Assembly (NCBI GenBank): GCA_003217735.2
Contig: CP031585.1
Span: forward strand, 1,971,501 to 2,035,500
Direction of reading: 5' to 3'
DNA: 64,000 nt
Source: Marinibacterium anthonyi
GTDB lineage: Bacteria; Pseudomonadota; Alphaproteobacteria; Rhodobacterales; Rhodobacteraceae
This document shows, piece by piece, positions 12,722 to 36,629 of this stretch. Every line of letters starts with the position of its first letter. Position 1 is the stretch's first letter. The position numbers and the translations under genes are program-made. The notes beneath the pieces were generated by a model. It had not been told where the DNA came from, did no database searches, and saw nothing but the letters and a program-made list of their open reading frames with translations.

Positions 12722-14509
12722 TCAGTCGGCTGAAGTCGTGACGAAGAAATAGACCCATTCGCCCTTGAAATCGCTGTTTTCCGCGCGGGCGTCGGCGACG
12801 CGGCCGCGCAGCCAGTCAAGGTATGGTTCGGCCGGTTCCCGGATCGGGCGCAAGGCGTCGTAAAGCGGTGCCGAGGCGGCGAAGGCCACGGCGATTTCCT
12901 GGCCAAAGGGCGGACCCACGAACAGCTTGAGCCCCGGATCGGATTGCGATGCGGCGCCGACGCGGAAGGTGCTTTCGGCGGCGACCTTGATCAGGGGCGC
13001 GCTGTCGTTGGGCGACAGGTGCAGCACGTTGCCTTCGGCGTCGAAGTAATCGACGTAGACGAAGGCGTCGTAATCGGGGGCGGTGAGGTCGAAGTAGAGC
13101 AGGTCTCTGTCCGTGAAAGGCAGGGCGCGCGCCTGCAGCGTTTCCCCGATCAGCAGCGGATTGGTGGTCTGGTCGGTCGATTGCGGCAGGTCGATGCGGC
13201 TGATGCCGGCCAGCGCGCCGCATTGCGGGCGGGGCAGGATCGCCATGTTGTCCGACACGCCGATATCTTCGCCCATTTCCTGTTGCAGCGCGCCGAGGAT
13301 CTGCGCGCGCAACCCGTCCTCGGGGATCTGGCCGTCGACGCGCAGGGACGCGGTGTCGGGGTCGAAGGCGATCTGCAGGCGGGAACAGGGGACGGCGGCC
13401 AGGATCCCCTGCAGGCCGTCGCGCAGGGTGGCTTCGGTGGCGGCAGGTCCGGGGGCGACAAAGCTTTGGAACGCGGCAAGCGAGACCGGGTCGATATCGC
13501 CGTCGCCGCCGGTGAAGGCGAGCGACGCGGTCATGCGCTGGGGCTGCGGTTCCGCCGAAGGAAGCGGGCGGGACGGCGCGGTGCCCGGCGGGACGGTGTA
13601 GGGGATGGGCGCTTTGGGCGCGGCGGGGCGGGCGCTGGCGGCGACGGCGGGCGCGCTGTCAAGCCGGGCGGTGCCGGTGGTGGCGCGGGTGGCCTGGCCC
13701 CGGGACGGCGCGGCGCGGTTGACCGATGGCGCGGCGGATTGCGCCTGCGCCTGTGCCGGCTGGGCAGAGCTGGCCGGATCGGGCGTCAGCGCGGCGGCGA
13801 TGGCGGTGACCGAGGCGGGGCGGGCGGTGTCGACCGGCAGGGCGTCGGGCAGCGCGGCATTGGCGGTGAAGGCGGCGGCCCGCGCGGGGTCCAGCCCCTG
13901 GGGCGCGGGGCGCGTGGGGGGCAGGCCGGTGGCGGGTGCTTCGGCGGTGGAGGCGACGGCAAAGGCGGGGCGGGCCGCGTCGATGAGGCTGGGCGCGGGG
14001 ATGTGGCTGCGCGCGGGCAAGGCGGGCGGGGGCAGGTCGCTGAGGGCCGATAGGGTCGGCGCCGTGTCGGGCAGGCGGGCGTTCTGTGGCGCGGCGGCGG
14101 CGACGCCCGAGAAGCTGGGCGCGGTGGCCAGGATGGGCGCGCCGGCGGTGTCGGTGGCGGGCAGCGCCTGCGACGGCGGATCGGCCGGGTCGGCGGGGGC
14201 CAGATCGGGTGGTTCCGCCGTGGCGGGCTGGGCCGTTGCGGGGACGGCGGTGCCGGGGGTGACCGGGATGGCGCCGGACCCGATCTGGGTGCCTTGCGCG
14301 GCGTCTTGGGTGGCGCGGTCGGGATCGGGCGTGGCCTGCGGCGCTTCGGTGCGGTCAAGGCGGTAGGCGGCGACGTCGATCTGTGTCTGCGGGCGGGGCT
14401 GGTCGGGGACCGGTTGGGGCTGCAGAAGTGCTGCAAGGCCCGCGACCGCGCCCGCGTTGAGCAGGAGGGAGGCGAAAAGCCCCGCAGGCCAGGCAAGCAG
14501 GCGGGTCAT
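12722..14509 (-). CDS. Pro/Ala-rich TonB-like membrane protein with DUF4384-like C-terminus
   Basis: 595 residues. One N-terminal membrane segment (AGLFASLLLNAGAVAGLAALL) is followed by about 300 residues of Pro/Ala/Thr-rich low-complexity linker and a globular C-terminal region (about 330-595). That region ends in GNVLHLSPN ... LYDALRP (549-555) ... FFVTTSAD, resembling the C-terminus of the PpkA kinase. The start overlaps the upstream exbD stop by ATGA. The position after ExbB-ExbD-ExbD is where TonB is expected, and the layout (anchor, long periplasmic linker, folded end) is TonB-like, but no TonB C-terminal domain is seen. It probably passes proton-motive force to an unknown periplasmic partner. 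Confidence 0.75.
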   Translation of the reverse strand: MTRLLAWPAGLFASLLLNAGAVAGLAALLQPQPVPDQPRPQTQIDVAAYRLDRTEAPQATPDPDRATQDAAQGTQIGSGAIPVTPGTAVPATAQPATAEPPDLAPADPADPPSQALPATDTAGAPILATAPSFSGVAAAAPQNARLPDTAPTLSALSDLPPPALPARSHIPAPSLIDAARPAFAVASTAEAPATGLPPTRPAPQGLDPARAAAFTANAALPDALPVDTARPASVTAIAAALTPDPASSAQPAQAQAQSAAPSVNRAAPSRGQATRATTGTARLDSAPAVAASARPAAPKAPIPYTVPPGTAPSRPLPSAEPQPQRMTASLAFTGGDGDIDPVSLAAFQSFVAPGPAATEATLRDGLQGILAAVPCSRLQIAFDPDTASLRVDGQIPEDGLRAQILGALQQEMGEDIGVSDNMAILPRPQCGALAGISRIDLPQSTDQTTNPLLIGETLQARALPFTDRDLLYFDLTAPDYDAFVYVDYFDAEGNVLHLSPNDSAPLIKVAAESTFRVGAASQSDPGLKLFVGPPFGQEIAVAFAASAPLYDALRPIREPAEPYLDWLRGRVADARAENSDFKGEWVYFFVTTSAD

Positions 14510-14916
14510 GGGGTGGCTGTCGCGGGGGTGACGACCAGCACGGTGTCCGGCACGCCGGTTTCCTCGGCGAGAGACACCAGCGGCAGGACGAACCGCAGTT
14601 CCGCGTCGCGGTGGGCGTTGATGCGCACCAGCAGGTCGGGTTTCGCCCGAAGCGCGGCGGCGATGCGGGCGGGCAGGGCATCCCGCGTGACAGGGGCGCC
14701 ATCCCAGGCCAGCGCGCCGTCGGCGGCGATGGACAGCGTCACGCCGCCCGCCGGCATGTCCTGGCCGGTGCTGGCGACGGGGGGCAGCACGTCGAACGGC
14801 GCGGTGGCGTCCATCCGCCCGATCAGCATGAAGAAGACGAGCAGGAAGAAGACCACGTCGATCAGGGCGACGATGGTCTCGGAATGGGCCGGGCGCGCGG
14901 GGCGGGCAAGCTTCAT
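14506..14916 (-). CDS. ExbD/TolR-family protein (second copy)
   Basis: 136 residues with one membrane segment (IVALIDVVFFLLVFFMLIG) that carries the proton-path aspartate of the family (LIDVVFFLLVFF), then a periplasmic domain. It overlaps the first exbD stop by ATGA at 14913-14916. Two ExbD paralogues in tandem suggest a heterodimer inside one ExbB pentamer. The energised partner is likely the next protein, not TonB itself. Confidence 0.9.
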   Translation of the reverse strand: MKLARPARPAHSETIVALIDVVFFLLVFFMLIGRMDATAPFDVLPPVASTGQDMPAGGVTLSIAADGALAWDGAPVTRDALPARIAAALRAKPDLLVRINAHRDAELRFVLPLVSLAEETGVPDTVLVVTPATATP

Positions 14917-15350
14917 GGCCGCGCCTCCAGCCGGATGACGCGCAGGCGGGTGATGCCGGCCTGCGTGGCGATCTCCATCACCGACACCAAGGCCTGGGTG
15001 GTCGCGGCGGCGGAGGGCAGGATCAGCACCTGGGTCAGCGGCGCGTCGGCCACCTGGGCGGACAGGCGGTCCGACAGGGCCTGCGCATCCATCCGCTGGC
15101 CGCGCAGGACCGGCACGCCATCGGCGCCGAGGCGGATCATCAAGGTGCCCGCGCCGGCGCCGTCGCCTTCGGTGGCGGTGGGGGCGTCGGCCTGCGCCGC
15201 GCCGCGCCGGGCGGCGGGGATCATGTCGAGGTCAAGGTAGGTGGACGTCACCATGAAGAAGACCAGCAGGATCAGCATCACGTCGATCATCGGCACCAGC
15301 GAGATCAGCGCCTTCGGCCGGGACGGACGGGTAAGGGTCGGCCCCGCCAT
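14913..15350 (-). CDS. ExbD/TolR-family protein (first copy)
   Basis: 145 residues with the ExbD signature SLVPMIDVMLILLVFFMV, including the conserved Asp in the membrane helix, and a short periplasmic domain with an acidic Ala-rich insertion (about 52-68). It lies four bases after the exbB stop. It would form the stator/plug element of the proton channel with ExbB. Sequence divergence from the second copy suggests different roles. Confidence 0.92.
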   Translation of the reverse strand: MAGPTLTRPSRPKALISLVPMIDVMLILLVFFMVTSTYLDLDMIPAARRGAAQADAPTATEGDGAGAGTLMIRLGADGVPVLRGQRMDAQALSDRLSAQVADAPLTQVLILPSAAATTQALVSVMEIATQAGITRLRVIRLEARP

Positions 15351-15354
15351 GGGC

Positions 15355-15972
15355 TTACCCCCCGGGCTCGTCGAGGCTGAGAAGCCGGCCGACCGCGCTT
15401 TCGATGGCCAGCGCCGCGCGGTCGATGCGGGCCGCGAAGAGGCCCGAGGCGACAGCCGCCGGGATCGCCACCAGCAGGCCGGCGGCGGTGGTCAAAAGCG
15501 CCTGCCAGATGCCGCCCGCCAGAACGGAGGCATTGGCCGACCCTTCGGCCATCTCCAGTTCCTGGAACGACTGGATCATGCCCAGAACGGTGCCCAGAAG
15601 CCCCAGCAGCGGCGCGATCATGGCGATGATCTCCAGCAGCCGGATGAGGCGGTTCATGTGGGCCACCTCCTCGTTGCCGCGCCGTTGCAGGTCGGCCTCG
15701 ATCCGGGCGGGGGAACGGCCGGCGTCCAGATCCTCCATCGCGGCGACCAGCATGCGGTCGGCGGGCGCGGTGCCGGCGCGGGCGGCGGTCAGGGCCTCGG
15801 TTTTCTCGCCCCGTTCCCACTGCCGGATCGCCCGGTCGCGCCGGTCACGGCCCGAGGTGGCGGGCCAGAGGTCGATGACCTTGACCACGATCACCGTCAG
15901 CGACAGCAGCGACAACAGGGCGAGGACGATGATGATCGGGCCGCCGTTGCCCAGGGTCTGAAGCGCGGGCAC
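15355..15972 (-). CDS. exbB: MotA/TolQ/ExbB proton channel protein
   Basis: 205 residues with three membrane segments (about 12-32, 115-137, 155-177). The core shows the ExbB/TolQ pattern: RRLLEIIAMIAPLLGLLGTV-like helix, then GGIWQALLTTAAGLLVAIPA. It starts with GTG directly next to the TAG of the preceding gene (TAGGTG). It forms the proton-driven motor with the two ExbD proteins. Its operon links it to a TonB-like protein and a caspase-like protein rather than to iron uptake. Confidence 0.92.
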   Translation of the reverse strand: MPALQTLGNGGPIIIVLALLSLLSLTVIVVKVIDLWPATSGRDRRDRAIRQWERGEKTEALTAARAGTAPADRMLVAAMEDLDAGRSPARIEADLQRRGNEEVAHMNRLIRLLEIIAMIAPLLGLLGTVLGMIQSFQELEMAEGSANASVLAGGIWQALLTTAAGLLVAIPAAVASGLFAARIDRAALAIESAVGRLLSLDEPGG

Positions 15973-17821: not shown

Positions 17822-18328
17822 ATGGCCGACAGTTCACAGAAATTCATCGCGCGCAACCGCGCGCCCCGGGTTCAGATCGAATACGACGTGGAGCTTTACG
17901 GCGCCGAGAAGAAGGTGCAGCTGCCCTTCGTGATGGGCGTCATGTCGGACCTTGCCGGCAAGTCCGAGGTCGAACAGCCCCCCGTGGCCGACCGCAAGTT
18001 CCTGGAAATCGACGTCGACAATTTCGACGACCGGATGAAGTCGATGGCCCCCCGGGTCGCCTTTACCGTGCCCAATACCCTGACCGGCGAGGGCAACCTG
18101 GCCGTCGACATCACCTTTGAGAGCATGGACGATTTCACCCCGGCCGCCATCGCCGCCAAGGTGGAGCCGCTGAAGGAACTGCTGGATGCGCGCACCCAGC
18201 TGGCCAACCTGATGACCTACATGGACGGCAAGACCGGCGCCGAGGACCTGATCGCCAAGATCATCCAGGACCCGGCCCTGCTGAAGACGCTGGCGGCGCA
18301 GCCGGCACCCAAGGCCACCGAGGAATAA
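17822..18328 (+). CDS. tssB: T6SS contractile sheath small subunit TssB
   Basis: 168 residues, normal TssB length. It starts with SSQKFIARNRAPRVQIEYDV and contains LPFVMGVMSDLAG, FLEIDVDNFDDRM and the C-terminal helix with MTYMDGK, all TssB hallmarks. With TssC it forms the contractile sheath. AAGGAG lies upstream at good spacing. The gene has a paralogue as the first 160 residues of the fusion protein at 28433, roughly four-fifths identical by eye. Confidence 0.97.
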   Translation: MADSSQKFIARNRAPRVQIEYDVELYGAEKKVQLPFVMGVMSDLAGKSEVEQPPVADRKFLEIDVDNFDDRMKSMAPRVAFTVPNTLTGEGNLAVDITFESMDDFTPAAIAAKVEPLKELLDARTQLANLMTYMDGKTGAEDLIAKIIQDPALLKTLAAQPAPKATEE

Positions 18329-18338
18329 GGAGAGGTTC

Positions 18339-19835
18339 ATGGCAGAAGAACAAGTCCAGTCCGAAGCCGGGGCCGAAGCCACCGCATTCGGGTCATCTGA
18401 ATTCGCCGCGCTGCTGCAAAAGGAGTTTCGGCCCAAGTCCGACCAGGCCAAGACCGCCGTCGAAGTCGCCGTCAAGACGCTGGCCCAACAGGCGCTGGCC
18501 AACACGGCGCTGATTTCCGACGACGCGCTGCGGTCGATCGAAGGCATCGTGGCCGAGATCGACAAGAAGCTGACCGAGCAGGTCAACCTGATCCTGCACA
18601 CCGAGGATTTCCAGAAGATGGAGAGCGCCTGGCGCGGGCTTCATTATCTTGTCAACAACACCGAAACCGACGAGATGCTGAAGATCCGGGTCATGAACAT
18701 TTCCAAGAAGGACATGCACAAGACCCTGCGCAAGTTCAAGGGAACCGCCTGGGACCAGTCGCCGATCTTCAAGAAGGTCTACGAAGAGGAATTCGGCCAG
18801 TTCGGCGGTGAACCCTTTGGCACGCTGGTGGCGGATTACCATTTCGACCATTCGCCGCCCGACGTCGAACTGCTGGGCGAGATGTCCAAGATCGCCGCGG
18901 CCGCCCATGCGCCGCTGATCACCGGCGCGCAGCCGTCGCTGTTCCAGATGGACAGCTGGTCGGAACTGGCCAATCCGCGCGACCTGACCAAGATCTTCCA
19001 GACGCCGGAATACGCGTCCTGGCGGTCCTTGCGCGAAAGCGAGGATGCCAAGTACGTCGGCCTGGCGATGCCGCGCTTCCTGGGCCGGCTGCCCTATGGC
19101 GCCAAGACCGAGCCGGTGGAGGCATTCGCCTTCGAGGAAGACACCGAAGGCGCCGACAGCAACAAGTATTCCTGGGTGAACGCCGCCTACGGGATGGCGG
19201 TCAACATCAACCGGTCGTTCAAGTCCTACGGCTGGTGCTCGCGCATCCGCGGGGTGGAGTCGGGCGGCGCGCTGGAAAACCTGCCCAGCCATACCTTCCC
19301 CACCGACGATGGCGGGGTGGATCAGAAATGCCCGACCGAAATCGCCATTTCGGACCGGCGTGAAGCCGAATTGGCTAAAAATGGAATGATGCCGCTGATC
19401 CACAGGAAAAATTCGGACCTGGCGGCATTTATCGGGGCACAGTCCCTGCACAAGCCGGCAGAATATGACGATCCGGACGCGACCGCCAATGCGAATCTTG
19501 CGGCAAGGCTCCCATATTTGTTTGCAACGTGCCGGTTCGCTCACTATCTAAAGTGCATGGTTCGGGACAAACTCGGATCCTTTAAAAGCCGAAACGATAT
19601 GGAGGCATGGCTCCAAGATTGGATTAATAAGTACGTTGATTTGAACGCAGATATTTCCTCGGAAGCCGAAAAGGCCAGGAAGCCGCTTGCCGCGGCAGAA
19701 GTTCTGGTCGAAGAGGTGGAAGGAAACCCAGGATATTATTCCTCGAAATTCTTCTTGCGACCGCATTACCAGCTTGAAGGACTTTCGGTCTCCCTGCGGC
19801 TTGTTTCCAAGCTGCCTTCGGAGAAGGGCGCATAA
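18339..19835 (+). CDS. tssC: T6SS contractile sheath large subunit TssC
   Basis: 498 residues, standard length. Landmarks include LSELANPRDL-type segment WSELANPRDLTKIFQ, the LPYGAKTEPVEAFAFEE motif and the full C-terminal end PGYYSSKFFLRPHYQLEG with the strands that interlock sheath subunits. It lies 10 bp after tssB with AAGGAG. From about 19370 to the stop, codon use changes sharply toward AT-rich codons (TTG, AAA, ATT, CTA, TTT) while the protein stays well conserved. This implies a recombined or differently selected 3' third. Confidence 0.97.
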   Translation: MAEEQVQSEAGAEATAFGSSEFAALLQKEFRPKSDQAKTAVEVAVKTLAQQALANTALISDDALRSIEGIVAEIDKKLTEQVNLILHTEDFQKMESAWRGLHYLVNNTETDEMLKIRVMNISKKDMHKTLRKFKGTAWDQSPIFKKVYEEEFGQFGGEPFGTLVADYHFDHSPPDVELLGEMSKIAAAAHAPLITGAQPSLFQMDSWSELANPRDLTKIFQTPEYASWRSLRESEDAKYVGLAMPRFLGRLPYGAKTEPVEAFAFEEDTEGADSNKYSWVNAAYGMAVNINRSFKSYGWCSRIRGVESGGALENLPSHTFPTDDGGVDQKCPTEIAISDRREAELAKNGMMPLIHRKNSDLAAFIGAQSLHKPAEYDDPDATANANLAARLPYLFATCRFAHYLKCMVRDKLGSFKSRNDMEAWLQDWINKYVDLNADISSEAEKARKPLAAAEVLVEEVEGNPGYYSSKFFLRPHYQLEGLSVSLRLVSKLPSEKGA

Positions 19836-20509: not shown

Positions 20510-21322
20510 ATGACGCCGGAAGAGCATCTCAAAGCCGGAGATCTCGCTGCGACGCTGGCCACATTGCAGGACAAGGTCCGCAAGGATCCGGCCGACGCAA
20601 GGCTGCGGATTTTCCTGTTTCAGCTGCTCTGCGTCCTGGGCGACTGGAAACGTGCCATCACCCAGCTGAAGGTTTCCGCCGAACTTGACCCATCGGCCGA
20701 GATGATGGCCCGCACGTACCGCGAGGCGATCATCTGCGAGGTCTATCGCGACAAGGTCTTCGCGGGCGAAAAGGACCCGATGGTCATGGGTGCGCCGCGC
20801 GAATGGCTGGCCCTGCTGATCGAGGCGCAGAAGCTGCTGGCGGCGAGGCAGCCTGAAAAGGCTGCAGAGCTGCGTGCCCGGGCTTTCGATGCCGCGCCCG
20901 CGACGCCGGGCATGGCGGACGGAACCGCGTTCGACTGGATCTCGGACGCCGACATGCGGCTGGGCCCGGTGCTGGAGGTCATCGTCAACGGGCGCTACTT
21001 CTGGCTGCCGTTCGACCAGATCACCGCGCTTGCCATGGAAGACCCGACCGACCTGCGCGATGCGGTCTGGACGGCGGCGACGCTGACGCTGGTGTCCGGC
21101 GGCGAGCTTCCCGCGCTGATCCCCACCCGGTATCCCGGCACCGCCGCCACCGGCGACGATGCCGCGAAACTGGCGCGCACCACCACCTGGGACGACGCGG
21201 GCGCCGATACTTTCGTGGGCACTGGCCAGCGGCTGCTGGCCACCTCTGCCGCCGATATCCCGCTGTGGGACCTGCGCGCGCTGTCCCTGCACCCCGTTGC
21301 CGTGCCGGCCTCCGATGGCTGA
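20510..21322 (+). CDS. tagJ: T6SS accessory protein TagJ (ImpE family)
   Basis: 270 residues. The N-terminal TPR-like part (LKAGDLAATLATLQDKVRKD, LRIFLFQLLCVLGDW) and the C-terminal module (FDWISDADMRLGPVLEVIVN, YFWLPFDQI) are the ImpE/TagJ pattern. TagJ proteins bind the sheath subunit TssB in some systems. The start ATG at 20510 has GGAG upstream. The end overlaps tssE by eight bases. Confidence 0.92.
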   Translation: MTPEEHLKAGDLAATLATLQDKVRKDPADARLRIFLFQLLCVLGDWKRAITQLKVSAELDPSAEMMARTYREAIICEVYRDKVFAGEKDPMVMGAPREWLALLIEAQKLLAARQPEKAAELRARAFDAAPATPGMADGTAFDWISDADMRLGPVLEVIVNGRYFWLPFDQITALAMEDPTDLRDAVWTAATLTLVSGGELPALIPTRYPGTAATGDDAAKLARTTTWDDAGADTFVGTGQRLLATSAADIPLWDLRALSLHPVAVPASDG

Positions 21323-24751: not shown

Positions 24752-27460
24752 ATGACGGAAATCAGCCGCGTCGCCCTGTTCGGCAAGCTCAACAAGCTGG
24801 GCTACCAGGCGGTCGAAAGCGCCACGGTCTTCTGCAAGATGCGGGGGAACCCCTATGTCGAGGTGGTGCACTGGATGCACCAGATCCTGAACGCCCAGGA
24901 CAGCGACCTGCACCGCATCATCCGGCACTACGACCTGGACCCCGGCGCCATCGCGACCGAGATCACCCGCGCGCTGGATCGCCTGCCGCGCGGGGCGACG
25001 ACGATTTCCGATCTGTCCGAACACCTGATGGACGCGATGGAACGCGGCTGGGTCTGGGGCTCGCTGCTGTATTCGTCCAACCAGGTGCGCACGGGGCACC
25101 TGTTGCTGGGGATGCTGAAGACGCCGTCCCTGCGCAACATCCTGCAGACGATGTCGCCCGAACTGGGCAGGATCGGGCCCGACGACCTGGCCGATCATTT
25201 CGCCAAGGCCACCGATGGATCCCCCGAAGGGTCGATGCGCCCGCAGGACGGGTCGCACACCGGCGGCGGCGCCCACCCGGGCGAGGCATCGGACGCCATG
25301 CACGCCCCCCAGATGGGCCATGGCGAGGCTTTGGCGCAGTTCTGCACCGACCTGACCGAACAGGCGAGGAACGGAGAGATCGACCCGATCGTCGGCCGTG
25401 ACGAGGAAATCCGCCAGATCGTCGACGTGCTGATGCGGCGGCGCCAGAACAACCCGATCCTCACGGGCGAGGCCGGGGTGGGCAAGACGGCGGTGGTCGA
25501 AGGCTTTGCCCTGCGCATCTCACGGGGGGATGTGCCGCCGGCGCTGAAGGACGTGCGGCTGCTGGTGCTGGACGTGGGGCTGTTGCAGGCGGGCGCGTCG
25601 ATGAAGGGCGAATTTGAAAACCGCCTGCGCCAGGTGATCGACGAGGTGCAGGCCAGCCCGGTGCCCATCGTCATGTTCGTCGATGAAACCCATACGCTGG
25701 TGGGGGCCGGGGGGGCCGCCGGAACCGGGGATGCCGCCAACCTGCTGAAACCGGCGCTGGCGCGGGGGACGCTGCGCACCATCGGTGCCACCACCTGGGC
25801 CGAGTACAAGAAGTATATCGAGAAGGACCCCGCACTGACCCGCCGTTTCCAGGTGGTGCAGGTGGACGAACCGGGCATCGACAAGGCCATCCTGATGATG
25901 CGCGGCATTGCGTCCATGCTGGAAAAACATCACCGCGTGCAGATCCTGGATGAAGGCATCGAGGCCGCCGTGACGCTGTCCGCCCGCTACATCCCCGCCC
26001 GCCAGCTGCCCGACAAGTCGGTCAGCCTGCTGGATACGGCCTCGGCCCGCGTCGCGGTCAGCCAGCATGCGGTTCCGGCCGAGGTCGACGACAGCCGCCG
26101 CCGGATCGAGGCGCTGACCACGGAACTGGAGATCATCGAACGCGACGAGACCGCCGGTTACGAGGTCGGCGACCGCCGCGAGGCGGTGACAGCAGCGAAG
26201 ACTGCCGAGGAGGAGCGTCTGACCGGCCTCACCGAACGGTGGGACAATGAGAAGGCCGTGGTCGAGGCCATCCTCGACCTGCGGGCCAGGCTGCGCGAAG
26301 GCGGCGCGCCCGTGGACGCCGAGGCGGCCACGCCAGAGGCCGCAGAGGTCAGCCCGCTGAGCGCCGACCAGCGCGCCGGGTTGCTGACCGAGCTGAAGGC
26401 GAAGAACGCCGAGTTGACGCGGATCCAGGGCGACAGCCCGCTGATCCTGCCCATCGTCGACCACCAGGCCGTGGCAAGCGTTGTCGGCGACTGGACGGGC
26501 ATCCCCGTGGGCCGCATGGTCAAGGACGAGATCCAGACGATCCTCAGCCTCGAAGACCACCTGGCCAAGCGGGTCATCGGCCAGGATCACGCGATGAAGA
26601 TGATCGCCAAGCGCATCCAGACCTCGCGCGCGGGGCTCGACAACCCGTCGAAACCCATCGGGGTCTTCATGCTGGCCGGCACTTCGGGCGTCGGCAAGAC
26701 CGAAACCGCGCTGGCCCTGGCCGAAGTGCTTTATGGCGGCGAACAGAACGTCATCACCATCAACATGTCCGAATACCAGGAGGCCCACACCGTCAGTTCG
26801 CTGAAAGGCGCGCCGCCGGGGTATGTCGGCTACGGCGAGGGTGGTGTGCTGACCGAGGCGGTGCGGCGCAAGCCCTATTCCGTGGTCCTGCTGGACGAGG
26901 TCGAAAAGGCCCACCCGGACGTGCACGAGATCTTCTTTCAGGTCTTCGACAAGGGCGTGATGGAGGACGGCGAGGGGCGGATCATCGACTTCAAGAACAC
27001 GCTGATCCTGCTGACGTCGAACGTGGGATCGGACCTGATCATGGACCTCTGTGCGGATCCCGACCTGATGCCCGAACCCGACGGCATCGCCAAGGCCCTG
27101 CGCGAGCCGCTGCTGAAGGTCTTCCCGCCCGCGCTGCTGGGCCGGCTGGTGACGATCCCGTATTACCCGCTGTCCCCCGACATGATCGCGGCCATCACCC
27201 GGCTGCAGCTGAACCGCATCAAGAAACGCGTGTCCGAGGCCCATGGCGTGCCCTTTACCTATTCCGATGCCGTCGTCGACACGATCGTCGAACGCTGCCA
27301 GGAGCTGGAGAGCGGCGGGCGGATGATCGACGCCATCGTCACCAACACCATGCTGCCCGAGATCTCGGCCGAATTCCTGCGCCGGATGATGGAGGGCGGC
27401 GCGATCAGCGCCGTTTCGGTCGACGCGAAGGACGGCGAATTCGCCTACGGCTTCGAATAA
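24752..27460 (+). CDS. clpV: T6SS sheath-recycling AAA+ ATPase ClpV (TssH)
   Basis: 902 residues with the ClpB/ClpV layout: N-terminal Clp repeat domain, first AAA+ domain with Walker A GEAGVGKT (about 238) and VDETHTLVGAGG, a middle coiled coil (about 450-560), and second AAA+ domain with GTSGVGKT (about 645) and LLDEVEKAHPDV. ClpV disassembles contracted sheath by acting on the TssC N-terminus. An extra poor-complexity segment rich in Gly/His/Pro (about 150-180) joins the N-domain to the first ATPase. A hairpin-forming stretch follows the stop (about 27484-27507) before the channel gene. Confidence 0.97.
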   Translation: MTEISRVALFGKLNKLGYQAVESATVFCKMRGNPYVEVVHWMHQILNAQDSDLHRIIRHYDLDPGAIATEITRALDRLPRGATTISDLSEHLMDAMERGWVWGSLLYSSNQVRTGHLLLGMLKTPSLRNILQTMSPELGRIGPDDLADHFAKATDGSPEGSMRPQDGSHTGGGAHPGEASDAMHAPQMGHGEALAQFCTDLTEQARNGEIDPIVGRDEEIRQIVDVLMRRRQNNPILTGEAGVGKTAVVEGFALRISRGDVPPALKDVRLLVLDVGLLQAGASMKGEFENRLRQVIDEVQASPVPIVMFVDETHTLVGAGGAAGTGDAANLLKPALARGTLRTIGATTWAEYKKYIEKDPALTRRFQVVQVDEPGIDKAILMMRGIASMLEKHHRVQILDEGIEAAVTLSARYIPARQLPDKSVSLLDTASARVAVSQHAVPAEVDDSRRRIEALTTELEIIERDETAGYEVGDRREAVTAAKTAEEERLTGLTERWDNEKAVVEAILDLRARLREGGAPVDAEAATPEAAEVSPLSADQRAGLLTELKAKNAELTRIQGDSPLILPIVDHQAVASVVGDWTGIPVGRMVKDEIQTILSLEDHLAKRVIGQDHAMKMIAKRIQTSRAGLDNPSKPIGVFMLAGTSGVGKTETALALAEVLYGGEQNVITINMSEYQEAHTVSSLKGAPPGYVGYGEGGVLTEAVRRKPYSVVLLDEVEKAHPDVHEIFFQVFDKGVMEDGEGRIIDFKNTLILLTSNVGSDLIMDLCADPDLMPEPDGIAKALREPLLKVFPPALLGRLVTIPYYPLSPDMIAAITRLQLNRIKKRVSEAHGVPFTYSDAVVDTIVERCQELESGGRMIDAIVTNTMLPEISAEFLRRMMEGGAISAVSVDAKDGEFAYGFE

Positions 27461-27587
27461 CGCCGCCTGGGTCAAGGATACTACCGACATCGTACTTGCG
27501 ACGTCGGCGCACGCGCGGAAAGATCCGGTCGGGCCGTCAGGTCAAGCGCGCCAGGACGGGCGCCGGTCAACGAGGGAAGGAATGCAC

Positions 27588-28436
27588 ATGACGGAGGCGG
27601 CTCAGCCCACAGGTTCGCGCGACAAGGTCCGTGCCTTCGTCGAAAGGCCGGATGTCGGCAATGCCATCCTGGGGATCATCGTCATCAACGCGATCATCCT
27701 CGGCCTGCAGACGTCGGAGCAGGTGACCGCCGCCATAGGGGGGCCGCTGAAGACGCTCGACCGGCTGATCCTGGGCATCTTCGTGATCGAGATGGCGCTG
27801 AAGCTTTATGCCTATGGGCTGGGCTTCTTCCGCAATGCCTGGAACATCTTCGACCTTGTGGTCGTGGGCCTGGGCCTGCTGCCCGACGGCAAGCAATTGT
27901 CGGCGCTGCGCGGCCTGCGTGTCATCCGGGCGATGCGGGTGCTGTCGGCGGTGCCGCAGATGCGGGCCGTGGTGCAGGCGCTGTTCGATGCGCTGCCGGG
28001 GATGGGCGCGGTCGTGGTGATGCTGTCGATCGTCTATTACGTCTTCGGCGTGATGGCGACGCTGATGTACGGCGATGCCTTCCCCGACTGGTTCGGCACG
28101 CTGGGGCGGTCGATCTATTCGCTGTTCCAGATCATGACGCTGGAAAGCTGGTCCATGGGCATCGTGCGCCCCGTCATGGCCGAATACCCCTATGCCTGGG
28201 CCTTCTTCGTGCCCTTCATCGTGGCCACGGCCTTTTCGGTGCTGAACCTGTTCATCGGCCTTCTGGTCAACACGATGCAATCGGCCGTGGAGGCCGAAAC
28301 GGAAGCCGAATTCGAACGCCTGCGCGACCTGGTCCGGGCCGAGACGGACATTGTCGACGAACATGTCCTGTCGCTGACGGACGAGATCAAGGCGCTGCGC
28401 CGCGAGATCGGCGAATTGCGCGGGGGGACCGCATGA
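27588..28436 (+). CDS. bacterial voltage-gated sodium channel-like protein inside the T6SS operon
   Basis: 282 residues with six membrane segments. S4 carries arginines 108, 111, 114 and 117 at every third position (ALRGLRVIRAMRVLS), as in voltage sensors. The pore loop reads TLESWS (184-189), the NaChBac-type sodium filter with Glu186. S6 (FSVLNLFIGLLVNTM) leads to a C-terminal acidic then helical coiled coil (about 233-278), the usual tetramer stalk. ATG 27588 is chosen over 27582 because GAGGGAAGG ends seven bases before it. The stop overlaps the next start by ATGA. A role in sensing voltage or sodium for the T6SS is inferred only from this position. Confidence 0.92.
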   Translation: MTEAAQPTGSRDKVRAFVERPDVGNAILGIIVINAIILGLQTSEQVTAAIGGPLKTLDRLILGIFVIEMALKLYAYGLGFFRNAWNIFDLVVVGLGLLPDGKQLSALRGLRVIRAMRVLSAVPQMRAVVQALFDALPGMGAVVVMLSIVYYVFGVMATLMYGDAFPDWFGTLGRSIYSLFQIMTLESWSMGIVRPVMAEYPYAWAFFVPFIVATAFSVLNLFIGLLVNTMQSAVEAETEAEFERLRDLVRAETDIVDEHVLSLTDEIKALRREIGELRGGTA

Positions 28437-31400
28437 GCGACAGCCAGAAGTTCATCGCCCGCAACCGCGCGCCCCGCGTCCAGATCGAATACGACGTGGA
28501 ACTTTACGGGTCGGAGAAAACCGTGCAGCTGCCCTTTGTCATGGGGGTGATGTCGGATCTTGCGGGCAAGTCGCATGTGGAACAGCCGGCGCCGGGCGAC
28601 CGGAAGTTCCTTGAGATCGACGTCGACAATTTCGACGACCGGATGAAGGCGATGGCGCCCCGCGTGGCCTTTGCGGTGCCCAACACGCTGACGGGCGAGG
28701 GCAACCTCGAGGTCGACCTGACTTTCGAGAAGATGTCCGACTTCGACCCGGGCGCGATCGCGGCGAAGATCGGCCCGCTGAAGGCGTTGCTTGAGGCGCG
28801 CACGCAATTGTCGAACCTGATGGCCTACATGGACGGCAAGGCCGGCGCCGAGCGGCTGATCGAGACGATCCTGTCGGACCCATCGCTTCTGGCCGCGCTG
28901 GGCGCAGCCGCCCCGGCCGGCAGCGCCGAAGCCGACGCCGCCCTCGACCGCCTCCGGGCCCTTGCCCCCACCGAGCCTGCCGAAGCTGCCGAACATGCCG
29001 AGGAGGACCGGAGCGACGCCATCCTGTCTTCCCTGGCGGCCGCAGCCCCCGAGGAGGGCCCTGAGGCCGATGCCACCTCTGATGTGCTCTCCGGGCTGGC
29101 GGCCGCAGCCCCGGTGGAGGAGGAGAGAGACGGCACGGGCGATATCCTGTCCGCTCTCACGACGGGCGCATCCGAAGAGCGGCCTTCAGAGGATACGACC
29201 TCCCGGGTGTTGTCGGGTCTGGCGGGACAGGCCCCCGTGGCGGAAGACGTGGAGGAAGAACAGGACACCTTCAAGGATATCCTGTCAGGCCTTGCGGCTA
29301 CGGCACCTGAGGACGAAGCGGTCAGGGACACGACCACCGACGTCCTGTCGGGCTTGTCTGCGCGCGCCCCGGTGGAGGAAGAAACGGACACCTTCGAGGA
29401 TATCCTGTCTGGCCTTGCGACCTCTGCACACGAGGAAGCGTCCACCGAGGACACGACCACCGACGTCCTGTCGGGCTTGTCTGCGCGCGCCCCGGTGGAG
29501 GAAGAAACGGACACCTTCGACGACATCCTGTCTGGCCTCGCTACCTCTGCTCCGCAGGACGCGCCCGAGGATGCGACAGCCGAAATCCTGTCGGACATGA
29601 CCGCTCGGGCGGGTGAACCGGCTCCGGGGGCGGATCAGGCCTCGGCCATTCTCGGGGATCTCTCCGTTTCGCCAGCACCGGCGCCTGAGCCCGATGCCCG
29701 AACCGAAGATATCCTTGCGGAACTGGGCACCGGGCAAACTCGGCTTCCGCCACGGGACACCGATACGGATGACGGTCTGGACGACCTGCTGGCAGACCTC
29801 GATCCCACGCCCCCCGCCGAGACCGGGGATGACGGTCTGGATGACATCCTTGGCGACCTGGGGGTCGCCGCGCTGGACGACGCCCGGATGATTGAGCCGA
29901 TTGAAGACGCGCCGGTTGCCAAGGACGATCCCGCGCCTGTGGCCCAGACAGACGATCTTGGTCTGGATGACCTTCTTGGGGGGGCGGATACGGCCGAACC
30001 CGCCGGGATCGGCGTGGCCGATGACGACGGGCTGGATGATCTGCTTGGTGACCTTGGCGCCCTGATGGGGGATGAGGCGGACGAGGCCGCGACGCGGGAA
30101 GACGCGACGGCGGTTGGCGAGGTGGATGACGATGGCCTTGATGACCTGCTCGGGGATCTTGCGGTTGCGGGCGGGGAAGACGGCAAAGTGCCGGATGTCC
30201 TGGCGGAGCCGCCGGGCGATGGCGGGCAGGGCGCGGCGCCCGGGCCTGAGGTCGATCCGCTGGACGATCTGCTGAACAGCCTGACCGACCTGACCATGGA
30301 TGGGGCGGACGCCGAGGAAGACGCGGCATCGCCGGACGTCGGGCTGCTGGACGACCTGCCGAGCGCGGTCGAGGCGCCGCCGCAATCAGAACCGGATCTG
30401 GTGTTCGGATCGATGACGGCGGATCGGCCCGATCCGCAGCGGCTGAACCGCAAACGGTTCCGTATCGCGCTGTTCGGCGATTTCAGCGGACGCGCGGCGC
30501 GCGGGGCGCTGGAGACCGGGGATGCCCTGGCCGCGCGCGCGCCGGTCATGCTGGACCCCGACAGCGTCGAGGAGATCATCGCGCGCTTCGCCGGAGACCT
30601 GGTCCTGCCGGTGGGCAGGGACGGGGCCGGGGTGAAAGTGCCGGTGTCGGGGCTGGATGACCTGCATCCCGACGAGATCTACGAGAAGGTGGAGTTGTTC
30701 GCAGAACTGAACGGGCTCCGGGGGCAGCTGAAGGCGGGGGCGACCTCGGCCGGGGCGCTGGCACGGCTGAAGCAATGGGCCGAGGCGCATGACGTGCCGC
30801 TGGCGCCGACGCATCGGCGGTCGGCGGCGACCTCGGTGCCGGCGGATCGCAAGCTGAGCGATTTCCAGCGGCTGATCGGGGACCATGGCGCAACGCTGAC
30901 GCAGACGTCTCCGGTGGAGGACATGATCGCGCGCATCATCGGCCCCCATGTGCGGCGTGCGCCGGACATGGATGCGGTAAAGCTGGTGGACGAGGCGATC
31001 TCGTCTGCCATGCGGCTGATCCTGCATCACCCGGATTTCCAGGCGCTGGAAAGCCAATGGCGCAGCCTGGACCTGCTGGCGCGCTCGATCGAGGCGGACG
31101 ACAAGCTGGATGTCATGCTCTACGACGTTTCGGCCGAGGAGATCGCCGCCGACCTGGCCGCTGCGGAGGACCTGGCGCAGAGCGGGATCGTCCGGCTGCT
31201 GACCGGGCCGCCTTTGGACGAGGAGACCGGGCGCGGTGGCTATTCGGCGCTGATCGGGCTGTATACCTTCGAGGAAACGCCGCCCCATGCGCAGATCCTG
31301 GGCCGGATCGCGCGGGTCGCGGCGCATGTGGACGCGCCGTTCGTGGCGGCGATGTCGCCGGGGTTCCTGGAGGTGAAGAAGGAAGACCGCCATCCGCTGG

Positions 31401-32074
31401 TGGCCGAGGCCTGGGACACGCTGCGCGCGATGCCCGAGGCCGCGTATATCGGCCTGGCGACGCCGCGGTTCATGCTGCGCCGCCCCTACGGGGCCAAGTC
31501 AGAGCCGATCTACGAATTCGACTTCGAGGAATTCACCATGGCCGAGGGGCTTAAGGGGCTGCTGTGGGCCAACCCGGTGGTTCTGGTGACGATCCTGATG
31601 GCGCAAAGCTTCCGCAGGAACGGGCCGGCGCTGGACCTGGGCAGCGTGATGTCGCTGGGTGACGTGCCGTTCCATTTCATCACCGACCGGTACGGCGACC
31701 AGGTGGCGCTGCCCTGCACGGAACGCAACCTGACGCTGTCGCGGGTCGAGGACGTGATGGCGCGCGGCTTCATGCCGGTGGTGTCGATCAAGGGCCGGGA
31801 CGAGATCCGGCTGGGGTCCTTCAACGCGCTGGGCGGCGCGCCGATCCGGGGGGCGTGGAGCGATCTGCCGCCGCCCGAGACATCGCCGCCCCGCCCGCCG
31901 GCCCCCAAAAAAGAAACGCCATCTGTGACCGAGACCACAGACATCATGGCGGAACTCGACGATATCTTGTCTGGATTTTCAGACGATGCGGCACCGGCAC
32001 AGCCGGCCCTGTCAGCATCGGGCGGCGATGGCGATATTGACGCCGATCTCGCCGCATTATTGGAGGACCTGTGA
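28433..32074 (+). CDS. TssB-repeat-TssC fusion protein, 1213 aa
   Basis: Residues 1-160 are a near copy of TssB (QKFIARNRAPRVQIEYDV, FLEIDVDNFDDRM). Residues about 185-645 are acidic and carry about 19 copies of a short motif, first [DE]-[IV]-L-S-[GDA]-[LM] every 20-21 residues (196-432), then D-G-L-D-D-L-L-G-D-L (447-618). Residues 673-790 (RFRIALFGDFSGR, LDDLHPDEIY) resemble the front of ImpD/TssC-like proteins, and 805-1145 are TssC-like (LATPRFMLRRPYGAKSEP). The canonical TssC end (PGYYSSKFFLRPHYQLEG) is missing. The tail repeats the motif (LDDILSGF, DLAALLEDL). It probably binds sheath or baseplate but cannot interlock like TssC. Start overlaps the channel stop. Function unknown. Confidence 0.85.
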   Translation: MSDSQKFIARNRAPRVQIEYDVELYGSEKTVQLPFVMGVMSDLAGKSHVEQPAPGDRKFLEIDVDNFDDRMKAMAPRVAFAVPNTLTGEGNLEVDLTFEKMSDFDPGAIAAKIGPLKALLEARTQLSNLMAYMDGKAGAERLIETILSDPSLLAALGAAAPAGSAEADAALDRLRALAPTEPAEAAEHAEEDRSDAILSSLAAAAPEEGPEADATSDVLSGLAAAAPVEEERDGTGDILSALTTGASEERPSEDTTSRVLSGLAGQAPVAEDVEEEQDTFKDILSGLAATAPEDEAVRDTTTDVLSGLSARAPVEEETDTFEDILSGLATSAHEEASTEDTTTDVLSGLSARAPVEEETDTFDDILSGLATSAPQDAPEDATAEILSDMTARAGEPAPGADQASAILGDLSVSPAPAPEPDARTEDILAELGTGQTRLPPRDTDTDDGLDDLLADLDPTPPAETGDDGLDDILGDLGVAALDDARMIEPIEDAPVAKDDPAPVAQTDDLGLDDLLGGADTAEPAGIGVADDDGLDDLLGDLGALMGDEADEAATREDATAVGEVDDDGLDDLLGDLAVAGGEDGKVPDVLAEPPGDGGQGAAPGPEVDPLDDLLNSLTDLTMDGADAEEDAASPDVGLLDDLPSAVEAPPQSEPDLVFGSMTADRPDPQRLNRKRFRIALFGDFSGRAARGALETGDALAARAPVMLDPDSVEEIIARFAGDLVLPVGRDGAGVKVPVSGLDDLHPDEIYEKVELFAELNGLRGQLKAGATSAGALARLKQWAEAHDVPLAPTHRRSAATSVPADRKLSDFQRLIGDHGATLTQTSPVEDMIARIIGPHVRRAPDMDAVKLVDEAISSAMRLILHHPDFQALESQWRSLDLLARSIEADDKLDVMLYDVSAEEIAADLAAAEDLAQSGIVRLLTGPPLDEETGRGGYSALIGLYTFEETPPHAQILGRIARVAAHVDAPFVAAMSPGFLEVKKEDRHPLVAEAWDTLRAMPEAAYIGLATPRFMLRRPYGAKSEPIYEFDFEEFTMAEGLKGLLWANPVVLVTILMAQSFRRNGPALDLGSVMSLGDVPFHFITDRYGDQVALPCTERNLTLSRVEDVMARGFMPVVSIKGRDEIRLGSFNALGGAPIRGAWSDLPPPETSPPRPPAPKKETPSVTETTDIMAELDDILSGFSDDAAPAQPALSASGGDGDIDADLAALLEDL
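29018..30361 (+). repeat. coding region of the periodic acidic motif array
   Basis: Codons 196-643 of the fusion gene. Motif starts fall at residues 196, 217, 237, 258, 282, 303, 323, 344, 364, 384, 405, 426, 447 and 467, a nearly constant 20-21 residue step, then more widely at 509, 532, 567, 608 and 637. Between motifs the sequence is Ala/Pro/Glu/Thr-rich and likely disordered, so the motifs look like short docking helices on a flexible string. Confidence 0.85.
29327..29520 (+). repeat. exact 71-bp direct repeat within the motif array
   Basis: The 71 bases at 29327-29397 recur exactly at 29450-29520, offset 123 bp (41 codons, two motif units). Similarity continues past both ends. Third-codon positions are identical too, so this is a recent duplication or gene conversion and the array length may vary between strains. 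Confidence 0.9.
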
Positions 32075-34309: not shown

Positions 34310-34900
34310 ATGACGGACAGGTTCAAAGGGATGATAAAGGTGCCGCAGGAACCCGCGGCAAAGCTGCTTGCACGGGCCAGCGCCCGGCTGAGCGCCGCAA
34401 TCGACGCGCCGGCCTCGGCCTCGGTCGACGAAGTGCTGAGCGAACTGGCCGAGAAGGGCGAATTGTTCGACATGCTGCACCTGCTGGCGGTGGCGTTGCC
34501 GGCCCGGGAACGGGTGTGGTGGGCCTGCCTGGCGGCGCGCGATTACGTCGGCCCGAAATCCGAGAAGGATCCGCGCCCGCTGACGGCGGCCGAGGCCTGG
34601 GTGTTCGAACCCTGCGACGACAACCGCACGTTGGCCAGCGACGCGATCGACGCGGCCTACGTGGATGACAACACGGTGCATTGCGCGATGGCCGCGCTGT
34701 ATTGCGACGGCACGCTTGGGCCCGGCGATCTGGCCAAGTTTCCGGCCCCCGCCGGGATGGCGGAAGCGGCGGCTTTCGGAATGAATATGGTAGCGTTGGG
34801 GGAAATGTCTGATAGGTTTGAGGAACATGGCATTCTTCTGGTCGATCGGGCCGTTGACATCGCACGCGGCGGCAACGGACGCGTGGGAGAACCGGTTTGA
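34310..34900 (+). CDS. unknown protein linked to vgrG (DUF6931-like)
   Basis: 196 residues, soluble, no signal peptide. A central segment ERVWWACLAARDYVGPK with the following LTAAEAWVFEPCDDNR resembles a family found near vgrG genes (DUF6931; from memory, moderate certainty). It lies eight bases after the vgrG stop. Position suggests an adaptor or chaperone for cargo on VgrG, but no adaptor family (DUF4123, DUF2169, DUF1795) is recognised. The 106-bp spacer to the FHA gene holds nothing clear. Confidence 0.65.
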   Translation: MTDRFKGMIKVPQEPAAKLLARASARLSAAIDAPASASVDEVLSELAEKGELFDMLHLLAVALPARERVWWACLAARDYVGPKSEKDPRPLTAAEAWVFEPCDDNRTLASDAIDAAYVDDNTVHCAMAALYCDGTLGPGDLAKFPAPAGMAEAAAFGMNMVALGEMSDRFEEHGILLVDRAVDIARGGNGRVGEPV

Positions 34901-35006: not shown

Positions 35007-36629
35007 ATGTCCGTGACCGTGTCCTTCCAGCCGACAGGCCCCGTGCCCGGCAATTCCGGCCCCGTCACCATGCGGGGCCCCAGCCTGACCATCGGTCGCG
35101 GCCCCGCCAACGACCTGGTGCTGCCCGATCCCGACCGGATGCTGTCCAAAAGCCACTGCGTGATCGAAGACCAGGGCGGCAATGTCGTGGTGATCGACCT
35201 GTCCACCAACGGCACCTTCCTGAATTATTCCAAGGTCGCCCTGGGCCCGGTGCCGACGCCGCTCAGCAATGGCGACGTGCTGACGCTGGGGCTGTTCGAG
35301 CTGGTGGTCAACATCACGTCCGAGATGCCTTCGGCCCTGGACCTGGCGCCCGACCCGATCGGCGATCTGCCGATCACGCCGGGCCATACGCCGCTGGGCC
35401 ATGACCCGCTGGCCGACCTGCTGGATGGGCCCGGCTCGGGCGGCGACGTGCTGGACGAATTGCTGGGCGGACAATCGGTGCCGACGGGGCCGTCGCAGAT
35501 CACGCCGGTCGATCCCATCGACGAACTGCTGCCCCCCGGGGGCGAGGACGACGACGATCCGTTCTTCTTGAAACCCCTGGACGGGCGGGAAGGCGAGGGA
35601 GCGAGCTTTTCGGCGCACAACGCTTCGCATCGCGATGTTTTCGAACCGCCGCGCCCCAGCCGGTCGATCATCCCCGACGACTGGGACGACCTGCTGGAAC
35701 CCGGCCCCGGCGAGGCCGGGCCGCCCGCCGCAAAACCGGCGCCGATGCCCGATAGGGTGCCCGATCCGATGCCCGATCCGCTCGCGCCGGACCCCCTGGC
35801 CGATTTCGCGGCGCCCGATCCCGATCCGATCCGTCCGCCCACCGCGGCCAGGGTGGCGCCGCCGTCGATCCCCGAAGCGCCTCCGGGGCCGGACCCGCAG
35901 GCAGCCCCGCCCGAACCTCCACAGGCGGATGGCGCCGCCGATCCGACACCGCCAAAACCCGATTTCGCCGCCGATTTTACCCCCGGCGCACCGCCGACAC
36001 CCCCGATACCCCCGTCCGCCGCGCCGGTGTCCACGGACGCCGCGCGCGCCTTTCTGACGGCGCTTGGAGCGGACGACATCGACATCCCCGACGCGGACCT
36101 GCCCCAGACGATGGAGCGGGCCGGCGCGATCATGCGCGAACTGGTCACCGGCATCCGCGAGATCCTGATGACCCGCAGTTCGATCAAGTCGGAGTTCCGC
36201 ATCGAACAGACGATGATCGCCGCCGGGGGCAACAACCCGCTGAAGTTCTCGGTCAGCCCCGAACAGGCGCTGGAAGCGCTGCTGCGCCCGCGCAGGCGGG
36301 GCTACATGGCACCCGAGGCCGCCGCGCGCGAGGCGCTGGACGACATCGCCGCACACGAGGTGGCGATGGTGGCCGGCATGGAAACGGCCATCAAGTCCGT
36401 GCTGGCCAAGCTCAGCCCCGAGGTGCTGTCCGACAAGATCGAGACATCGGGCCGCCTGGGCAGTTTCCTGCGGGGCGGGCGCAAGGCGCAGTACTGGGAT
36501 GTTTACGAAAAGATGTTCGCCGAGATCTCGGACCAGGCGGAAAACGAGTTTCATCATTTCTTCAGCCGTGAATTTGCAAGGGCCTACCAGGAACAATTGA
36601 ACCGGCTGAAGGCCCGGAACGACCAATAA
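35007..36629 (+). CDS. tagH: T6SS FHA-domain protein (TagH/Fha)
   Basis: 540 residues. The FHA domain (about 25-100) has all phospho-threonine-binding landmarks: GRGPANDLVLP with Arg31, SKSH (47-50) and STNGTFLN with Asn68. A long acidic, Pro-rich linker (about 105-340) carries DPLADLL, DVLDELL, DPIDELL and DDWDDLL (133-230), similar to motifs of the fusion protein. The C-terminal 190 residues are the TagH domain (MRELVTGIREILMTRSSIKS, NEFHHFFSREFARAY). It should read phosphorylation by PpkA, probably on TssL. Confidence 0.93.
   Translation: MSVTVSFQPTGPVPGNSGPVTMRGPSLTIGRGPANDLVLPDPDRMLSKSHCVIEDQGGNVVVIDLSTNGTFLNYSKVALGPVPTPLSNGDVLTLGLFELVVNITSEMPSALDLAPDPIGDLPITPGHTPLGHDPLADLLDGPGSGGDVLDELLGGQSVPTGPSQITPVDPIDELLPPGGEDDDDPFFLKPLDGREGEGASFSAHNASHRDVFEPPRPSRSIIPDDWDDLLEPGPGEAGPPAAKPAPMPDRVPDPMPDPLAPDPLADFAAPDPDPIRPPTAARVAPPSIPEAPPGPDPQAAPPEPPQADGAADPTPPKPDFAADFTPGAPPTPPIPPSAAPVSTDAARAFLTALGADDIDIPDADLPQTMERAGAIMRELVTGIREILMTRSSIKSEFRIEQTMIAAGGNNPLKFSVSPEQALEALLRPRRRGYMAPEAAAREALDDIAAHEVAMVAGMETAIKSVLAKLSPEVLSDKIETSGRLGSFLRGGRKAQYWDVYEKMFAEISDQAENEFHHFFSREFARAYQEQLNRLKARNDQ

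Follow-up and report, generated by a model that had tools for sequence, protein, structure and literature searches.

The DNA examined here (the window) is a 64,000-nucleotide stretch of the Marinibacterium anthonyi genome (contig CP031585.1, positions 1,971,501 to 2,035,500). Its plus strand carries a type VI secretion system (T6SS) operon in which a gene fusing both kinds of sheath protein, TssB and TssC, is embedded. The initial annotation had described a single frame of 1213 residues, additional to a complete operon tssB and tssC, and both statements hold: the frame is intact from ATG to stop, and so are the two separate genes. The order of domains is TssB, an acidic array of 18 units, a second TssB domain (TssB'), a TssC domain (TssC') and an acidic tail, an anatomy that we regard as very probably correct. 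Judged by its sequence, the fusion is a TssCL protein, so that the layout, which the initial annotation took to be undescribed, had already been published in 2022 (PMC9515649).

The N-terminal domain matches the VipA family (PF05591) at 205 bits, the score being for the whole protein with a cut-off of 24, and TIGR03358 scores the N-terminal part at 192 bits against a curated cut-off of 97.25. The domain is 78-82% (about 80%) identical to the operon TssB and scores 236.6 bits with HsiB1. A peptide of HsiB1 binds TagJ/HsiE1, with contact residues described in PMC4239648, and its counterpart is retained, as QKFI.RNRAPRVQ stands at the N terminus of 56 of 58 full-length fusions. Preserved too are the positions of the helix that faces TssC, as defined on the basis of PMC3840085. 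The copy has thus changed little, as first proposed, and to judge from its sequence should still be fit to pair with TssC.

The array carries a net charge of -115 over residues 161-655, with units mostly 20-21 residues apart early on and less regularly spaced later. The acidic motif array recognized at the outset is not a product of chance: it matches D[ILVAT]L..[LIM] at 13 places, and 500 shuffled versions of the stretch averaged 0.67 matches. At the DNA level, a 123-bp unit is present in 2.5 copies with 86% match in the window. Among 61 proteins (the window's and those of 60 loci, some cut by a contig end) the array spans 336-1007 residues, and a looser unit pattern occurs 13 to 67 times per protein in the 57 with a clear TssB. 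AlphaFold2 modeled the full-length protein with a predicted local distance difference test score of 57, the array being of low confidence with short helices at many units, and the array is probably disordered.

The segment first read as an ImpD/TssC-like front is instead a divergent second TssB domain, according to both hhalign and Pfam. It is 27% identical to TssB over 94 columns by profile (hhalign), and its Pfam VipA alignment begins only at profile position 28; the match scores 22.9 bits in the window (cut-off 24), and 47 of 47 members have it at E 0.01. The proposed TssC core stands in part. TssC' has the VipB N-terminal domain, and TIGR03355 (TssC) scores 149.4 bits, under its curated cut-off of 271.5, but the C-terminal domain through which TssC polymerizes is absent: the gpW/gp25-like domain (PF18945, Pfam) is missing from the fusion and from 47 of 47 C-terminal halves (C-halves) and present in the operon TssC. 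The AlphaFold2 model of the C-half, with structural matches across 18-493, has TssB' and TssC' folded together like one sheath protomer; the tail is of low confidence in this model. By sequence comparison the C-half is without handshake elements on both sides, having no TssB' arm and no TssC' gpW/gp25-like domain, and TssB'-TssC' should therefore be unable to polymerize or be woven into a sheath wall. The fusion had no PHROG match, and a phage origin was dropped on that ground.

Distribution and descent of the family

A contig scan, with loci chosen by match to the C-half, confirmed 492 relatives, of which the best 80 were kept. Titles among these best 80 include Ruegeria, Leisingera, Sulfitobacter, Sedimentitalea and Tateyamaria, and the nearest match is a Rhodobacteraceae metagenome-assembled genome, at 83% over the C-half. 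TssB is in frame in 60 of the 80 loci, the 5' end is cut by the contig in 14, and TssB is absent from 6, one of which (L149) has TssB and array in an adjoining frame. Within the 60, two that lie at contig ends (L083, L118) start partway through TssB, and one (L106) has a weak TssB (55 bits). In 390 genomes sampled from the order, some match was found in 112, and 37, the window's own included, matched both front (TssB') and core (TssC') at 50% identity or more; the other 36 loci divide into 26 with a clear TssB, 1 with a weak one, 4 with none and 5 cut by the contig. All 31 fusion loci that extend to the separate tssB and tssC have them.

The layout is thus conserved in related genomes, and the frameshift artefact considered at the outset does not explain it, with the frame open through TssB in those 60 loci and on two finished plasmids, of Ruegeria conchae and Qingshengfaniella alkalisoli (1386 and 1231 aa stop to stop). 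On both plasmids the deposited coding sequence begins 3' of the TssB part despite the open frame, which leaves this part unannotated (L074:15565-16315 and L076:15967-16471). To call such a gene "contractile sheath large subunit" misleads, and annotation of this kind can omit the TssB part of a fusion found in many marine bacteria. Draft contigs ending inside the array or TssB (L036, L038, L039, L058 and L066, besides the 14 loci of the best 80) were probably broken where the repeats or the tssB duplicate disrupted assembly.

Short members without TssB and array also exist, in the same family or in Rhodobacterales (L053, L054, L055, L087, L142, L146, L155), on a plasmid of Eleftheria terrae (Burkholderiales) and in genomes of other families, one of the same class (G891) and two of the same phylum (G708, G507). 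Outside the family, front and core were matched only in the last three (398 and 385 genomes searched, E 1e-40), which marks the short forms as rare. Homologues lacking a sheath domain had been named as grounds for rejecting the fusion; such TssB-less relatives do occur, but they make TssB optional in the family and leave the fusion real. By their sequences, the short members outside Alphaproteobacteria extend the published range of TssCL, which widens from a roseobacter curiosity to a broader family. The C-terminal acidic LAALL motif has four conserved leucines, each present in at least 80 of the 81 tails, and a LAALL-type end is present in the Burkholderiales relative; G708, G507 and G891 stop before it.

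The fused TssB domains do not form one clade, and the starred branches of the tree require at least four changes. Two fusions pair with the TssB of their own operon (support 98/93 and 100/94); deep forks are weak in this tree, which includes L035 on a very long branch, and these two pairs are its firmest part. For them, the tree suggests that the cognate tssB was captured, or replaced the fused copy by gene conversion, more than once. Identity to the genome's own TssB, over 27 of 28 pairs (L035, with a degenerate TssB part, was dropped), is 97.7% at residues 4-35 and then 82.5, 80.6, 75.4 and 54.6% along the domain. For fused TssB, TssB' and TssC', pairwise omega lies in the range 0.02-0.15 where computable, indicating that the folded domains are under purifying selection; for the array it is 0.17-0.29 in 5 of 9 pairs, the other pairs being saturated.

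The operon around the fusion gene

The genes of the operon and the parts of the fusion are collected in Table 1. Names of tssA, tssB, tssC, the ion channel, vgrG and the DUF6931 gene rest on families, and those of tagJ and clpV on solved relatives; the remaining labels were assigned by gene order, after the annotated plasmids of Ruegeria conchae and Qingshengfaniella. By sequence, this operon belongs to the Pseudomonas aeruginosa H1 class, because of the scores of TagJ with HsiE1, of the ClpV N domain with ClpV1 (against 45.5 and 28.2 bits with the ClpV N domains 4hh5 and 3zri) and of the fusion TssB with HsiB1.

Table 1. Positions of the operon genes, fusion domains and neighboring genes in the window
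Feature	Position	Strand	Remarks
Ser/Thr protein kinase gene	6930-9113	-	upstream of T6SS operon; weak DUF4384 match
MotA/TolQ/ExbB, two ExbD and DUF4384 protein genes	12722-15972	-	divergent, beside tssA; DUF4384 in protein at 12722-14509
tssA	from 16650	+	family match
operon tssB	17822..18328	+	intact; family matches
operon tssC	18339..19835	+	intact; both VipB and VipB_2 domains
hcp	from 19917	+	label by operon order
tagJ	20510..21322	+	264.6 bits with HsiE1; start codon is the analyst's choice
tssE	between tagJ and tssF	+	label by operon order
tssF	from 21813	+	label by operon order
tssG	from 23654	+	label by operon order
clpV	24752..27460	+	ClpV1-type N domain; 212.4 bits with P. aeruginosa ClpV1 N domain
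ion channel gene	27582..28436	+	PF00520; voltage-gated type; 3' end overlaps fusion start
TssCL-type fusion gene	28433..32074	+	1213 aa; stop codon included
N-terminal TssB domain	28433..28912	+	residues 1-160; PF05591 at 9-158
TagJ-binding peptide counterpart	28442..28510	+	residues 4-26; HsiB1 equivalent binds TagJ/HsiE1; start of handshake arm
acidic array	28928..30397	+	residues 166-655; 18 units, core D[IV]LSxL or LDDLL
TssB'	30458..30742	+	residues 676-770; TssB domain without N-terminal arm (hhalign)
segment aligned to TssC N-terminal helix	30854..30883	+	hhalign; pattern in 74/80 loci
TssC'	30974..31822	+	residues 848-1130; PF05943, 157 bits; no gpW/gp25-like domain
acidic tail	31874..32071	+	residues 1148-1213; ends in DLAALLEDL
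vgrG	from 32118	+	family match
DUF6931 protein gene	34310-34900	+	PF22011; between vgrG and fha
fha	35007..36629	+	related acidic-leucine motifs in product
tssK	from 36670	+	label by operon order
tssL	from 38021	+	label by operon order
tssM	from 39427	+	label by operon order
tagF, then PP2C phosphatase gene	3' of tssM	+	labels by operon order

The ATG of the fusion overlaps the stop of the ion channel gene, and the channel is present in 26 of the 31 fusion loci that reach clpV; the fusion is found without it as well. Among 75 genomes with a canonical TssC match only, the operons of 4 were examined and Fha of 18. In these four fusion-free operons clpV runs directly into vgrG and the ion channel is absent too, so that the pair of fusion and channel, as read from these gene orders, behaves like an accessory cassette that lies between clpV and vgrG.

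The DUF6931 gene has the same placement in many related operons, and the MotA/TolQ/ExbB-ExbD-DUF4384 set also adjoins the Ruegeria conchae cluster. No RNA element was found in the window at Rfam gathering thresholds.

A possible role at the sheath

The reading that we favor, with a probability of roughly 35%, is an accessory sheath protein whose TssB part enters the sheath and whose tethered pseudo-protomer docks the disassembly machinery. The N-terminal TssB would pair with operon TssC and enter a minority of sheath protomers, the acidic array would exit from the outer sheath face as a tether bearing many copies of the acidic-leucine motif, and the TssB'-TssC' pseudo-protomer would hang at its end, excluded from the wall. 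Together with the TagJ-binding N terminus, it could then form a docking hub for TagJ and ClpV and aid recycling, the docking partner being our guess. Incorporation into the sheath and surface display are what we infer from the anatomy. A C-terminal load on TssB appears to be tolerated, since C-terminal fluorescent TssB fusions assemble and cycle (PMC5511345, PMC3840085), and a protomer that lacks its handshake and cannot polymerize is likely to be used for binding. That ClpV and TagJ are the partners is less likely than not; they are preferred because the TssB end should bind TagJ, itself a ClpV1 binder (PMC4239648), and because the profile alignment sets LSDFQxLIGD opposite the N-terminal helix of TssC, where the TssC' linker of G708 resembles the N terminus of its own TssC.

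Several observations weigh against this interpretation. In P. aeruginosa, a TssC1 that lacked its first 33 residues could still bind ClpV1 (PMC4239648), so the ClpV site of the H1 class may lie elsewhere than in that helix. An unbiased test of the TssC' linker against the N terminus of the cognate TssC fails, with 30 of 120 permutations as good; taken genome by genome, G708 is the one exception (5 of 200 shuffles). The class-by-class match of the TssC' helix to the cognate TssC, although impressive to the eye, is thus not significant and is kept as a lead. The short relatives do whatever job they have without a fused TssB, TssB is lost or degenerate in L034, L035, L106 and L109, and related operons work without the fusion gene, if they work. 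The full-length AlphaFold2 model is also poor.

An assembly scaffold is the next explanation to weigh, if an unlikely one. TssCL would gather sheath subunits at the Fha/PpkA site, possibly in a condensate, its TssB and its pseudo-protomer acting as hooks on the sheath side. Condensates of Acidovorax Fha and PpkA do recruit T6SS parts (PMC12607579), and motifs of the LDxLL type are densest in the fusion (7.9 per 1000 residues), followed by Fha (3.6) and TssK (2.2), with 0-0.7 in other operon proteins. However, short acidic motifs arise easily and no common partner is known, and Fha retains FL[DE][DE]LL in 11 of the 18 genomes without the fusion, so a coupling of Fha and TssCL motifs is not supported. 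The acidic-leucine motifs of Fha, with conserved FLDDLL, DPIDDLL and DDWDDLL types, occur in many fusion-free genomes and should have a partner.

Less likely again is a cap or terminator, in which the pseudo-protomer would sit on the growing distal end and block further rings, or else mark the first ring, like the special sheath paralogues of some contractile systems. Having neither arm nor C-terminal domain, it would grip a ring weakly, the distal end is already served by TssA-type proteins (PMC4969574, PMC7545191), and the array would be an odd requirement. Slightly less credible still is a chaperone or reservoir, an acidic soluble protein binding free TssC through its TssB part and so preventing polymerization away from the baseplate. 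The strong negative charge and a TssB part seemingly fit for TssC binding would suit it, as would the self-assembly of overproduced TssB1C1 (PMC5807055), but the best-kept region of TssB is the handshake arm with the TagJ peptide, for which a protein that only binds TssC would have no use. A chance or assembly fusion, or a decaying duplicate, without function is most improbable: the lost or degenerate TssB parts and the split frame of L149 could be read that way, but assembly artefact is already refuted by the 60 open frames among the best 80 loci (14 cut), the 26 among the other 36 (5 cut) and the agreement of the finished plasmids, and the folded domains are under purifying selection.

On balance, the evidence leans weakly toward a sheath-tethered docking role. 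More broadly, and with the same tentativeness, TssB'-TssC' may represent a new functional T6SS class, a handshake-less pseudo-protomer serving as a dedicated docking module for sheath partners (TagJ/ClpV or Fha-type factors). It would occur unattached in several proteobacterial lineages, while in roseobacters a long, multivalent acidic tether would repeatedly have linked it to the cognate TssB, letting it ride on the sheath. T6SS research has yet to explain how sheath subunits are brought together, kept separate and recycled, and a naturally occurring TssB that carries so large a C-terminal load is a ready tool for the purpose; its anatomy predicts that the TssB part incorporates and that TssB'-TssC' cannot polymerize.

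Comparison with known sheath proteins

The closest described protein is TssCL of roseobacter squid symbionts (Front Microbiol 2022, PMC9515649), to which no function is assigned in the available portion of that report, the sole one found for TssCL or TssC-L in a T6SS context among open-licence PubMed Central papers; the word "fusion" is absent from the main text of an article on plasmid T6SSs (PMC13098142). Both TssCL and the window's protein have two VipA domains and one VipB in one chain, the first VipA being near the operon TssB (86% in the published TssCL and about 80% in the window's protein), the second at about 26-27% and the VipB at about 31-34%, and both lie in an H1-like cluster keeping a complete separate tssB and tssC. 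The array motif, the missing handshake parts, the repeated tssB capture and the short members do not figure in the accessible account, and while TssCL is there reported as not detected outside Alphaproteobacteria, our family includes short relatives in Eleftheria terrae and two genomes of other classes.

Canonical TssB and TssC (VipA and VipB) are separate chains, whereas the fusion has both in one and differs further in its arm-less second TssB, its TssC without the gpW/gp25-like domain, and its long acidic array and tail. TssC40/ImpD is likewise a second TssC homologue within a cluster; according to PMC3702570, Agrobacterium requires TssC40 for Hcp secretion, and TssC40 and TssC41 are not redundant. 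However, the TssC40-type genes seen in this analysis, named by operon position, keep the C-terminal domain and have no TssB front, and they co-occur with the fusion family in G891 and G507. For these reasons TssC40/ImpD was set aside as the parent family, in a comparison that used the position-named genes and not Atu4340. Finally, the sheath proteins of extracellular contractile injection systems, pyocins and phages are single chains in which TssB-like and TssC-like halves form one protomer, much as modeled for TssB'-TssC'; unlike them, the fusion lacks the C-terminal handshake domain and is tethered to a TssB.
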